Under the pieces are notes generated by a model, which saw only the letters and a list, made by a program, of their open reading frames with translations, was not told where the DNA came from and did no database searches. Position numbers and translations under genes: made by a program. A stretch of DNA of 56,640 nucleotides from a virus: positions 1-56,640 of IMG/VR virus record IMGVR_UViG_3300020056_001798, one strand, 5' to 3'. Below are positions 10,211-55,546 of the stretch, in pieces (position 1 is the first letter of the stretch; each line of letters begins with the position of its first letter).

Positions 10211-10412
10211 AAAATTTGATGAACTCAGCACTGATGATTTGTGCTACTTAGAAAAAATATTAGGTGAAAAGTTTGCTCAACAACTAGAAGCAGATCAAAC
10301 CTGGGCTGCAAAAAATCACTATGACCGTCCTGGTAATAAAAAGAAACAAATACTTCGTATTATGGATGCTGTCCGTTCACAAAAACGGTTGACAAGTGTA
10401 GCCAAGTGGTAG
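10200..10412 (+). CDS. small helical protein, unknown
   Basis: A 70-residue charged helical protein (MVSKKFDELSTDDLCYLEKI) overlapping the previous gene by 11 nt. It ends 1 nt before the TATAAATA at 10413. The TTGACA of the tmRNA promoter lies inside its last codons. No family recognised. Confidence 0.6.
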   Translation: MVSKKFDELSTDDLCYLEKILGEKFAQQLEADQTWAAKNHYDRPGNKKKQILRIMDAVRSQKRLTSVAKW

Positions 10413-10420
10413 TATAAATA
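10389..10420 (+). promoter_or_regulatory. dual promoter of the tmRNA (sigma70 -35 plus late TATAAATA)
   Basis: TTGACA 10389-10394 and, 18 nt later, TATAAATA 10413-10420. The same bases serve as a sigma70 -10 (TATAAA) and a perfect T4-late box. This would allow tmRNA synthesis throughout infection. Confidence 0.65.
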
Positions 10421-10421
10421 A

Positions 10422-10700
10422 ACTGTAACGTTGAAGCCAATCAACGACGAACTGGACGGGAGTTCGAATCTCCCCACCTCCACCAATAAACTTCTATGGG
10501 GGTGTTCCGGGAATCGACAGGCGTAATAGAGAACGTGGAGTTACCGGTAGGCGAGACCGTAAATCAGCAAACACAATAATTGCAAACAGCAATTTTAAAC
10601 CTGAACTTTTCTTTGACGCAGAAGTCTTAGAAGCAGCCTAAGGGCAAGTTCGCGGTATAGGCTCCACCGGGCAACAGAACGGGCCTGCTACATTTTAGCG
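10422..10700 (+). ncRNA. ssrA: circularly permuted (two-piece) tmRNA
   Basis: The acceptor piece lies first. It has T arm GGGAG-loop-CTCCC (10458-10474), acceptor strand CACCTCC (10475-10481) and an encoded ACCA ending at 10485. After only 12 nt, the coding piece begins at 10498 with GGGGGTG, which pairs with CACCTCC (one G-U), followed by the D-loop-like GGGAATCGACAGG. The tag frame starts at GCA 10582 after the typical ATAATT context and reads ANSNFKPELFFDAEVLEAA before TAA at 10639-10641. The 5' and 3' limits (about 10422 and 10700) are estimates. tmRNA frees stalled ribosomes and tags the product for proteolysis; ClpS and ClpP are encoded in the same window. A permuted gene is the form found in alphaproteobacteria and some marine cyanobacteria. 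Confidence 0.9.
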
Positions 10701-47864: not shown

Positions 47865-48188
47865 TTGCAAATACTCAAAGATTTTCATTTAAAGAAACTA
47901 AATCAAATTAGATGGTGGGCCTGGGCAGCAACAGTACTGCCTATAGTATCTCTTGCTGGTTTATTTTTTATTAATTATATCGGCACCGAAACTTATTGGG
48001 AAATTGCCCTTACCTGTGGTGCAACAATTATGTTTGCTATCGCAGTCATTTGGTGGTGGTGGGCGATTTATACTATCGCACAGGTCACAAATATTTTAGG
48101 AACTATTGCTGATAAATTTCAGGATGTAGGACAAGAAATTAAATTAATTAAGAAAGATATTTCTCAACCCGATGATCAAGCAGATTAG
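47865..48188 (+). CDS. two-span membrane protein, unknown
   Basis: 107 residues from TTG 47865. Two membrane segments (WWAWAATVLPIVSLAGLFFI and IMFAIAVIWWWWAIYTIA) with a polar C-terminal helix ending QPDDQAD. It overlaps the minus-strand halogenase by 41 nt, convergently. Similar small proteins occur in cyanophages, role unknown. Confidence 0.65.
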   Translation: MQILKDFHLKKLNQIRWWAWAATVLPIVSLAGLFFINYIGTETYWEIALTCGATIMFAIAVIWWWWAIYTIAQVTNILGTIADKFQDVGQEIKLIKKDISQPDDQAD

Positions 48189-49587
48189 GTTTTATATCAA
48201 ATCCTAAAAATAAAAACATATGGCTACTATTGTCAAATATACTATGTCCATCAAATATATTTGACACATTAAATTTCTGTTTTTTAGTAGCATAAGATTT
48301 TAGAATATTTTTTTGCATAGGAGTTAACTCTAAACTAGAAAAATCTCTCCAAAACTGAGTATCACGTCTATTAGAAAATATGTAGTGCATTTCTATATAG
48401 CTTGCAATTGCATCTAAACTTAAATTATTAAGATAATTAAATCGTTGACGTTTCTTATGCATTGGTATATGAGACGAAGTTAACATATCTAAAACAGTGT
48501 CTGCCTGATGTTGCAAATGGGCAATTGCTGTACTTTCGATAGGTTCTAAGAAAAAGCTACTTAATCCTATTGCTACAACATTATTCTTCCAGGTCTCTCT
48601 ACGTAAGCCTACATTGAAAGGCACAGTTCGAAATGTCAAATCTTCTTTTTTGTAACCATAAGTTGAATGCAAATGCTCTTTAAATTCTTCAGTAGCCTGT
48701 TCTACTGTAGTATGTCTAGAACTGAAAACATAGCCTGTACCTATTCTATTTTGAAGAGGCACATTCCAACTCCATCCGTATCCTAGTGCGTGACAGTAAG
48801 TAGTATTGCGCATTTGAATATTTTTGTCAATGTAAGGCAGTTGAACAGCAATTGCAGTATCAACAAAAAGTCTCTGTTTGTAGGAATCGTCCCAATCTGC
48901 TTCTATAGCATTTGCAAGGATTGATCTAAACCCTGTACAATCTATATATAAATCTGCTGTAATTTCTGTATCATTTTTCAAAATTAGCTTTTGTATTTCT
49001 TGATTTACTACTACAATATCTTTGACACTGTTGTCTAAGTAATTACAGTTGCTTCTTTTTAAACTTTCTTCTTTGAGTAAATTTCCATATAAGCCTGCAT
49101 CAATATGATATCCGGCACTTGGTGTAAACTCATAATTGTATTGGTCAGTATAAGGTGTAAACTGTTTTGCACGTAAGTTTGCAAATACATAAGTATCTTC
49201 AACAAAATCAGGCTGATCTTTATAAAAGCCTAAATCTAATGTTCCGTTACAAGTCATTCTTGTTATAAGATCATCAGGTGCAGTTGGACTTGTAAATGGA
49301 TGTATCCATTTATGGCCTTTATCGTGATAATCTGCAAATTCTATACTAAATTTTAATGTACCATTAACTTTTTTAAGCCAATCTGAATTTTCAAATATAG
49401 GGAATTGCATTTTAGAATGGATTACATTCATATAAGGAATAGTGCTTTCGCCTACACCGATTGTAGGAATATCACTAGGTTCTATTACAGTAACATTTAA
49501 ATTTGAATTAGTAGATATTAGTGCAGCAGTACTCCATCCTGCAGTTCCGCCACCTACTATCACTACATCATAGGTTGCCTTCTGCAT
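48148..49587 (-). CDS. flavin-dependent tryptophan-halogenase-like protein
   Basis: A 479-residue flavoprotein. FAD site GGGTAGWSTAA at the N-terminus, IGVGEST, the catalytic-Lys region NGTLKFSIEFADY, the halogenase WxWxxP motif in YGWSWNVPL, and the FLEPIESTAI block with the conserved Glu. It would generate HOCl or HOBr to halogenate a substrate, classically tryptophan. Related genes occur in cyanophages. It is last in the minus-strand fibre operon, overlapping the previous gene by 20 nt, so the substrate might be a virion or surface component (inference). Confidence 0.87.
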   Translation of the reverse strand: MQKATYDVVIVGGGTAGWSTAALISTNSNLNVTVIEPSDIPTIGVGESTIPYMNVIHSKMQFPIFENSDWLKKVNGTLKFSIEFADYHDKGHKWIHPFTSPTAPDDLITRMTCNGTLDLGFYKDQPDFVEDTYVFANLRAKQFTPYTDQYNYEFTPSAGYHIDAGLYGNLLKEESLKRSNCNYLDNSVKDIVVVNQEIQKLILKNDTEITADLYIDCTGFRSILANAIEADWDDSYKQRLFVDTAIAVQLPYIDKNIQMRNTTYCHALGYGWSWNVPLQNRIGTGYVFSSRHTTVEQATEEFKEHLHSTYGYKKEDLTFRTVPFNVGLRRETWKNNVVAIGLSSFFLEPIESTAIAHLQHQADTVLDMLTSSHIPMHKKRQRFNYLNNLSLDAIASYIEMHYIFSNRRDTQFWRDFSSLELTPMQKNILKSYATKKQKFNVSNIFDGHSIFDNSSHMFLFLGFDIKPNLLDHRVEKYLS

Positions 49588-53625: not shown

Positions 53626-54213
53626 ATGTTAGTTATAGGAAATGGCGAAAGTAGGTTAGGTATAAATCTAGATGAATTTGACGTCCTTAAGATAGGATGT
53701 AATGCTATCTATAGAGATTTTTTTACAGATCATTTAGTTTGTGTAGATAAGCGTATGTGTGATGAGGCATTAAATGCTGAAGTAAATCATAAATCGCTAA
53801 TATATACCCGGCCAGAAAATTATATATCATATACCAAACGGCTTAGAGAGGTTCCGCTTTTGCCTTATGCAGGTATGGAAAGACCAGATCAACCAAAACA
53901 TTGGGGCAGTGGTCCATATGCGCTGCTGATTGCTGCAAAAAAATACAATACCATAAGTATGTTAGGTTTTGATTTATACAGCCAAACTAAAAACGTTAAT
54001 AACATTTATAAAGGCACAAAGAATTATATTGCAGCAGAAAAAAGTGCTGTAGATCCTAGTTATTGGATATACCAGATATCAAAAATATTTGAAAATTTTA
54101 CCACAACAAAATTTATAATATATCAGGTCGAAGGATGGCAAAGACCTAAATCCTGGAAAAAGCCTAATGTAAAGGTTGACAATATAAGTAACATATACTA
54201 TAATATAAACTAG
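53626..54213 (+). CDS. DUF115/glycosyltransferase-like protein
   Basis: 195 residues. LVIGNGESRLGINLDEFDVL followed by IGCNAIYRD and GSGPYALLIAAKKYNTISMLG resemble the Rossmann-like MAF/DUF115 or sialyltransferase-type proteins carried by T4-like cyanophages. Perhaps modifies surface glycans. The next promoter overlaps its 3' end. Confidence 0.7.
   Translation: MLVIGNGESRLGINLDEFDVLKIGCNAIYRDFFTDHLVCVDKRMCDEALNAEVNHKSLIYTRPENYISYTKRLREVPLLPYAGMERPDQPKHWGSGPYALLIAAKKYNTISMLGFDLYSQTKNVNNIYKGTKNYIAAEKSAVDPSYWIYQISKIFENFTTTKFIIYQVEGWQRPKSWKKPNVKVDNISNIYYNIN
54176..54204 (+). promoter_or_regulatory. sigma70-like promoter of the queD-like operon
   Basis: TTGACA 54176-54181, 17 nt, TATAAT 54199-54204. 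Expected start near 54211, immediately before the riboswitch. Confidence 0.85.
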
Positions 54214-54218
54214 TAAAC

Positions 54219-54256
54219 AAGGTCTTAGCGTCACCCCTTCTAATTCTGCCGCTATA
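54219..54256 (+). promoter_or_regulatory. preQ1-I-like riboswitch
   Basis: P1 is AAGG (54219-54222) with CCTT (54236-54239). The loop TCTTAGCGTCACC parallels the preQ1-I loop (U-UCUAGC-N-ACA-C). TAGCG in the loop (54226-54230) pairs with CGCTA in the tail (54250-54254), forming the H-type pseudoknot. A ribosome-binding site CAGGAGA follows and the regulated gene is queD-like. Confidence 0.75.
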
Positions 54257-54273
54257 TTATACAGGAGATAATT

Positions 54274-54723
54274 ATGGCAAAGCACTACTCAACAAAACAT
54301 TACGGACACAACATTGGACTATCAGCAGTTTTTAGACAGCCCAATGCAGATCATTCACACTGTCATTTGCTACACGGATATAGTCTAGCATTTACATTCA
54401 CTTTTGGATGTGATCATCTCGATAACAAGAACTGGGCTGTAGACTTTGGCGGCTTAAAGCCCTTAAAGGCTTGGCTAGAAGATTCATTCGATCATAAAAC
54501 TTGTGTGGATATTGCAGATCCTATGAAAGATGAATTGCTACGTTTAGAAACACTAGGACTTGCAGAGATACGTCAGTTTGACGGTGTTGGTGCAGAGAAG
54601 TTTGCAGAACACGCATTTAACTTTGCAGATGCTCTTATCCGTGAGGCAACAGACAACCGTTGTTATTGTGTTAAAGTAGAATGTGCAGAACACGGAGCAA
54701 ACTCAGCTATTTACGAGGCATAG
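54274..54723 (+). CDS. 6-carboxytetrahydropterin/6-pyruvoyltetrahydropterin synthase-like protein (QueD-like)
   Basis: A 149-residue T-fold protein. HSHCHLLHGYSLAFTFTFG carries the catalytic Cys and zinc His region, and VDFGGLKPLKAWLEDSFDHKTCV the conserved DFGxLK...DH block. Two classical zinc His positions (SASH and HGH) appear as Phe and Tyr, as I recall for a divergent alphaproteobacterial group (GLSAAFRQ...HGY). QueD makes carboxytetrahydropterin on the way to preQ1/7-deazaguanine. The preQ1-like riboswitch strengthens the assignment. Possible use: DNA or tRNA deazaguanine modification. Confidence 0.82.
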   Translation: MAKHYSTKHYGHNIGLSAVFRQPNADHSHCHLLHGYSLAFTFTFGCDHLDNKNWAVDFGGLKPLKAWLEDSFDHKTCVDIADPMKDELLRLETLGLAEIRQFDGVGAEKFAEHAFNFADALIREATDNRCYCVKVECAEHGANSAIYEA

Positions 54724-54724
54724 T

Positions 54725-55546
54725 TTGACAAAAATATACATAGAAGGCGAAACAAAAGAACAGCGTAAAGCTCGTAAATCTATAGAAAAGGCGCAGAAAA
54801 GTGTCGTTTCTCCAGAAATTTTGCCGCAGGAAAATGTAGAAAGATTTGTATGCTGCCTAAAATATGGCAACAAATATTCTGCTGACTATGTAAACAAATT
54901 ATATAATATGGTGCAAAGGCATCTTACTCTTGATCATCAATTTGTATGTTATACAGAAGATCCAAAAGACATTGATCCTAATATTCGAATAGAGCCATTG
55001 GAAACATTACCAGGAATTCAAGGATGGTGGTACAAGCCAATGTTCTTCAATCCAAAAATAGGTATTGACGGTACTTTGTTATTTTTAGATTTAGATATGA
55101 TTATTTTTGATAACATAGATAAACTTTTTACATACAAGCCTGGAGAATTTTGTATAATTCAAGACTTTAATAGATATGTTGTAAAAAATTATAATAAATT
55201 TAATAGTAGTATTTTTAGATTAGATACACATAAGGCAACACATAAAAATGTATACGAGGATTTTATAAAAGATCCTAAAATACCTATTACTAGATACCAC
55301 GGGGATCAAGATTGGATACGCAAGTGTATCCAAAAAGATTATAATTATTGGCCAGAAGATTGGATACAAAGTTACAAATGGGAAATGAGAGGTAAGCCAA
55401 AATTTAATGGTAGGCCAAGAGGTGAAAGAGATTTTTTAGAACAAGCTGAACCCGTAGTAAAAGCAGGAACTGCAATAGCAGTATTCCACGGAGATCCTAA
55501 TCCGCATAACTGTAAAGATCCTTGGGTGTTGGAGCATTGGCAATGA
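54725..55546 (+). CDS. glycosyltransferase-like protein
   Basis: 273 residues from TTG 54725 with ACGAGG upstream, right after queD. After a basic N-terminal helix, KYGNKYSADYVNKLYNMVQR, LLFLDLDMIIFDNIDKLF (DxD metal motif) and VFHGDPNPHNCKDPWV fit a GT-A type transferase known from T4-like marine phages. It may add sugars to phage DNA bases or surface glycans. It overlaps the next gene by 4 nt. Confidence 0.78.
   Translation: MTKIYIEGETKEQRKARKSIEKAQKSVVSPEILPQENVERFVCCLKYGNKYSADYVNKLYNMVQRHLTLDHQFVCYTEDPKDIDPNIRIEPLETLPGIQGWWYKPMFFNPKIGIDGTLLFLDLDMIIFDNIDKLFTYKPGEFCIIQDFNRYVVKNYNKFNSSIFRLDTHKATHKNVYEDFIKDPKIPITRYHGDQDWIRKCIQKDYNYWPEDWIQSYKWEMRGKPKFNGRPRGERDFLEQAEPVVKAGTAIAVFHGDPNPHNCKDPWVLEHWQ

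Follow-up and report, generated by a model that had tools for sequence, protein, structure and literature searches.

Riboswitches that bind preQ1 are known from bacteria, and the 2024 review of the family makes no mention of phages (PMC11625349). The preQ1-I riboswitches, which we take here as defined in PMC11625349 and PMC10622847, are small H-type pseudoknots of about 35-45 nt in the 5' leaders of queuosine-pathway genes; they comprise types I-III, their Rfam family is RF00522, and type III is exemplified by the E. coli yhhQ leader, which holds the Eco type III preQ1-I sequence with a GGUUAAUC linker (PMC10622847). A G-C pair atop P1 forms the floor of the ligand pocket, and the specificity cytosine immediately precedes the P1 3' strand and itself follows a U in type I or an A in types II and III (PMC11625349). 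Two further bases mark the class, namely a uridine in L1 (U6) that reads N9-H of preQ1 and an adenine in L3 next to the P2 3' strand (A30, A29 or A27). The preQ1-II and preQ1-III riboswitches also are pseudoknots in a queuosine-pathway context, but are much larger HLout folds (PMC11625349). In phages, FolE, QueD and QueE are known from the 7-deazaguanine DNA-modification clusters of phages 9g and Iggy, for which no riboswitch is mentioned (PMC6884629). Our literature search, with partial coverage, found no paper that joins queD, riboswitch and phage in the sense proposed below.

A leader pseudoknot before a phage queD-like gene

The window, by which we mean the whole 56,640-nt stretch of viral DNA that was analysed, carries a leader of about 60 nt between a promoter and a queD-like gene. 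The following features are found there:

54176..54204, + strand: sigma-70-type promoter TTGACA-17-TATAAT, read from the sequence (TTGACA 54176-54181, TATAAT 54199-54204, spacer 17 nt)
54217..54255, + strand: whole pseudoknot motif, H-type, ~40 nt; covariance model R1, 53.3 bits, E 3e-12, a score that is not independent as the window is among the 20 training sequences of R1
54219..54222, + strand: P1 5' strand AAGG; covaries with 54236-54239
54223..54225, + strand: start of L1, N-C-U; C and U invariant in 78/78
54226..54230, + strand: P2 5' strand, core UAGCG (TAGCG); covaries with 54250-54254
54231..54233, + strand: P2 extension U-C-R; U54231.C54249 mismatch invariant, pairs C54232-G54248 and A54233-U54247
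54234..54235, + strand: L2, N-C; C54235 invariant in 78/78, in the place of the preQ1-I specificity cytosine by comparison with PMC11625349
54236..54239, + strand: P1 3' strand CCTT; covariation
54240..54246, + strand: L3, CUAAUUC; A54243, U54245 and C54246 invariant
54247..54254, + strand: P2 3' strand UGC-CGCUA, core CGCTA at 54250-54254; covariation
54263..54267, + strand: Shine-Dalgarno AGGAG, read from the sequence; P2 ends 8 nt earlier
54274..54723, + strand: queD-like gene of the PTPS fold, 149 aa, ATG at 54274; Pfam, PHROG
54683..55546, + strand: glycosyltransferase-like gene, start uncertain; PHROG 1962, E 1.3e-25

The promoter, P1 and both P2 strands are present as an earlier sequence-only reading of the locus had described them, and a Shine-Dalgarno sequence and start codon follow. 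Its drawing of P2 as TAGCG/CGCTA holds for the core and falls short in extent: the helix goes on past the U.C mismatch to A54233-U54247, which makes the L2 loop shorter than had been drawn.

The same reading had assigned the gene to the QueD/PTPS fold, and the protein indeed matches Pfam PF01242 (E 1.7e-12, 47.8 bits) and the ‘QueD-like’ PHROG 2389 (E 2.7e-37), but does not reach the cut-off set for the NCBIfam equivalog of QueD, 6-carboxytetrahydropterin synthase (35.1 bits vs 89.25). In the alignment, the residues that we take to be the catalytic Cys, Asp-His and Glu are kept in the window protein, and of the three presumed canonical zinc histidines two are replaced throughout the phage family, His16 by Phe or Tyr and His33 by Tyr (in HGY). 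The QueD of phage Iggy, which is 50% identical to the window protein and sits inside a full deazaguanine cluster, has the same two replacements. Downstream, the glycosyltransferase and the 2OG-Fe(II) oxygenase that had been noticed are both there; a glycosyltransferase is a common neighbour of queD (107/151 loci), whereas an oxygenase is not (11/151). In 13 loci (L007 and 12 others) the gene right after queD reads like KDO-8-phosphate synthase.

Conservation and covariation of the pseudoknot

The leader pseudoknot at 54217-54255 is conserved and covaries far beyond chance. We aligned 78 distinct sequences without gaps, anchoring them on conserved sequence blocks and not on pairing, and trimmed the variable stretches of L1 and L3 (alignment A6); this procedure was chosen because MAFFT on the full motifs (A2) misplaced gaps in L1. 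Across the 78 sequences 92.1% of the cells are paired, and nine of the 11 pairs show two-sided changes. The covariation score is 0.401 compared with 0.147 in shuffles, none of 500 shuffles being as good on any measure, and reaches at most 0.176 in strand-sliding controls; two-sided cells number 116 against 32 in shuffles. The third pair of P1 occurs as A-U, C-G and U-A and the fourth as G-C, A-U and U-A, while the states found in P2 are G-C, A-U, G-U, U-A and C-G. Mutual information computed without a given structure ranks the P1 and P2 pairs at the top and adds R16-Y30 (alignment columns), which together with the invariant C15-G31 lengthens P2 across the invariant U14.C32 mismatch. This R-Y pair is A-U in 59 sequences and G-C in 19, and is thus paired in 78/78. 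Placed on the QueD protein tree, the pair states change 11 times for pair 4-21, 21 times for 11-35 and about 10 times for 16-30, counts that leader exchange between phages could inflate.

Relatives with a longer P1 have an L3 that is 4 nt longer, as it should be if L3 lies alongside P1. In the 78 sequences twelve columns never vary; most of these are unpaired or belong to the mismatch, and such a dense set is more than a mere stabiliser would need.

Distribution and linkage to queD

A protein search gave 80 viral loci with a QueD 85-92% identical to that of the window, in whose leaders the motif recurs, its base changes leaving both helices intact, and a gene-blind scan with a DNA pattern added more copies before QueD-like genes, down to ~36% protein identity. 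On viral contigs the motif lies at most 150 nt upstream of the queD-like gene in 140 of 153 places. The other 13 include two loci cut at a contig end, one degenerate copy, two loci (L107 and L180) where the motif stands further upstream with a methyltransferase-like or small gene between, and several promoter-to-Shine-Dalgarno leaders that have no motif; five loci (L044, L046, L050, L055 and L076) lack it although their QueD is 86-88% identical, which weighs against the sensor reading given below. Taken from the side of the RNA, 72 of the 75 structured motifs found with the DNA pattern lead into a queD-like gene, the remaining three being chance-like and situated in GC-rich, coding-like DNA. 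Shuffled loci would be expected to hold 0.35 such motifs against the 75 seen, the loci having been preselected by part of the pattern. Where whole records were searched, clear R1 matches are single and located at queD; the ATGC-type copy at queD (L027) in a 237-kb record (G009) is missed by R1.

A similar promoter stands just upstream of the motif in 65 of 96 distinct leaders, its -10 end 5-18 nt before the motif, and in relatives the end of P2 precedes the Shine-Dalgarno sequence by 3-23 nt.

A scan for the exact motif gave zero matches, and a loose pattern scan of genome contigs returned mostly chance matches in GC-rich genomes. The R1 search of 292 cyanobacterial and 299 pseudomonadotal genomes yielded no credible copy (best ~26 bits), and of the weak matches six were inspected, none of which fits the motif. 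No motif match was obtained in GenBank phages at the DNA level, and the motif was not found in phages Iggy, Pan1 and BUCT-ZZ01. Within the sampled genomes, the element looks phage-specific.

Comparison with preQ1-I riboswitches

The sequence-only reading had called the leader preQ1-I-like, and part of the design bears this out. The phage motif is an H-type pseudoknot of the right size in a 5' leader, the G-C floor atop P1 (G6-C19) is kept in 78/78, giving the same GG/CC arrangement, and the base immediately preceding the P1 3' strand is C in 78/78. The base before this cytosine is A or U in 71 of 78 (A48/U23/C7), like types I-III, the window being among the seven with C. L2 is short as in type III, and the linked gene belongs to the queuosine pathway: it is queD-like in every plausible case, with queE downstream in some.

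The differences concern the bases that read the ligand. The L1 uridine, present in the window itself, is not conserved in the family (A45/U26/C7), and the L3 adenine that preQ1-I places by the P2 3' strand is replaced by an invariant cytosine, C29; if P2 is cut back to its CG core, it is C32, likewise invariant, that takes the place of the adenine. Of the aptamer bases, the cytosine and the G-C floor are conserved in related phages, and U6 and A30 are not. P2 has six pairs around the invariant U.C mismatch compared with about 3-4 pairs in preQ1-I, and there is a conserved UC(U/C)GC block. For L3, which is A-rich along P1 in preQ1-I, the comparison is mixed: it is more or less A-containing in the phage motif, of the UUUACAAAC type in many relatives and CUAAUUC in the window. 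The Shine-Dalgarno sequence lies outside the knot, and the motif is so far known only from phages.

Covariance models cross-match in neither direction. The Rfam PreQ1 model (RF00522), the search of which had been suggested as a check on the label, leaves the window and four further leaders unmatched even at E 10. In the same mode, however, it also fails on the E. coli yhhQ aptamer, a proven type III member (L368, 5175-5215), again even at E 10, so that the model overlooks real members of the class and its miss of the phage motif alone proves little. Conversely R1, in which only P1 is modelled, finds no preQ1-I aptamer in 11 clostridial loci picked out with RF00522, two of them over the family cut-off, nor the E. 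coli yhhQ type III aptamer. The window has no Rfam match to preQ1-II or preQ1-III, and an Rfam purine-riboswitch match at 54181-54276 is attributable to chance (19.4 bits vs a cut-off of 37, E 0.94). The preQ1-I label is thus supported in part, and membership in the class on the definition adopted here is not supported.

Pathway genes and candidate ligands

The window, which is a genome fragment, has no match to FolE, QueC, QueE or TGT. The suggestion to look for other deazaguanine genes was borne out in larger relatives: FolE occurs in seven of 18 records, all about 80 kb or more, and these seven also have QueE-like matches, adjoining FolE in four. Motif-led gene orders comprise motif-queD-queE (L130) and motif-queD-phosphoribosyltransferase (L082). 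This FolE-QueD-QueE context ties the motif to pterin and deazaguanine synthesis. QueC, on the other hand, is absent in 25 of 26 records, and the one match, in G024, is not counted since its ORF looks like an NAD synthetase. TGT-fold proteins (TGT or DpdA) are absent in 18/18; in this and in QueC the window relatives differ from the clusters of phages 9g and Iggy. These absences speak against preQ1 as the end product; they also make preQ1 doubtful as the ligand and some other compound plausible in its place.

In two loci queE has a phosphoribosyltransferase-like gene as its neighbour, and in a third such a gene lies near queE (L343, L345 and L346), as in cyanophage BUCT-ZZ01 (L320). The presence of this gene by queE, together with the lack of a TGT/DpdA fold, suggests a nucleotide route by which deazaguanine enters DNA, a possibility considered for phages lacking DpdA (PMC6884629).

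Possible mode of action

We think it reasonably likely that the leader is a cis-regulatory RNA, most probably one whose ligand is a small molecule from the FolE-QueD-QueE (pterin/7-deazaguanine) pathway and which sets the translation of queD. It is probably a candidate new phage RNA sensor whose design is related to that of the preQ1 riboswitch and not identical to it. The distance between promoter and motif implies that transcripts start near P1, so the H-type pseudoknot would form where the queD-like mRNA begins and bind the metabolite there, which might be preQ0, CDG, CPH4, preQ1 or a nucleotide form. C54235 may recognise the ligand by pairing to its guanine-like face, the role that the corresponding cytosine has in preQ1-I riboswitches. 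The position of P2 just before the Shine-Dalgarno sequence makes translation the likely controlled step, and the ligand-bound knot, 8 nt from that sequence in the window, would alter ribosome access. Feedback repression of queD is the simplest option and our default guess. As a more specific proposal, put forward tentatively and with slightly less than even confidence, we speculate that the motif represents a new, phage-only riboswitch class whose ligand is not preQ1 but some other intermediate, a pterin or a 7-deazaguanine (CPH4, CDG, preQ0 or a nucleotide derived from one of them), and which adjusts deazaguanine synthesis by the phage; on this view the L1 uridine and L3 adenine would have been lost because the ligand presents a different edge.

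Alternatively, the leader could be a true preQ1-I riboswitch of a subtype found in phages, with the usual preQ1 pocket, that represses queD when host preQ1 is high. The shared topology, pocket floor, specificity cytosine and gene context speak for this, as does the genuine type III aptamer that Rfam likewise fails to see, but the drifting L1 uridine, the cytosine in place of the adenine, the longer P2, the lack of model cross-matches and the missing QueC and TGT-fold proteins in nearly all tested relatives make it unlikely.

In bacteriophage T4, gp32 attaches to a pseudoknot in the leader of its own message, and the knot described here could by analogy be a protein-bound operator, for instance for autogenous control; or it could serve to stabilise the mRNA at its 5' end. 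Neither role would involve a small ligand. A protein-binding operator fits as well with the attachment to one gene family only, and the motif lies right at the start of the transcript. Nor is a switching step visible in the sequence: anti-Shine-Dalgarno pairing, suggestive in some groups (for example CCUAUG/CAUAGG in GCGG-type leaders), is rejected as an expression platform because it is no better than in shuffles, the Shine-Dalgarno sequence of 17 leaders being unpaired at 0.50 with the real aptamer strands and 0.46 with shuffled ones. The dense invariant loop bases and a cytosine positioned as in a guanine-type pocket argue against a ligand-free element, and RNA binding is not known for QueD; we regard this explanation as rather improbable. 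A chance resemblance devoid of function, for which the background-level Rfam score might be cited, is refuted by the conservation and covariation over 78 distinct sequences and is next to impossible; the excess of motifs over shuffled loci within the preselected set also speaks against it.

A leader knot that persists before phage queD genes as divergent as these would imply that phages use RNA-based control of their own deazaguanine supply, and the motif is a sharply testable orphan riboswitch candidate with a handful of candidate ligands.

Other features of the window

A permuted tmRNA is found at 10386-10689 on the + strand (RF04321, 96.3 bits; also matched by alpha_tmRNA, RF01849), where ARAGORN reports none. 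The window has a cyanophage-like load of metabolic genes, with plastocyanin, heme oxygenase, Fe-bilin reductase, HSP20, ClpP, ClpS, NifU domains, IMPDH/GMP reductase and ribonucleotide reductase. A tryptophan halogenase is encoded at 48151-49587.
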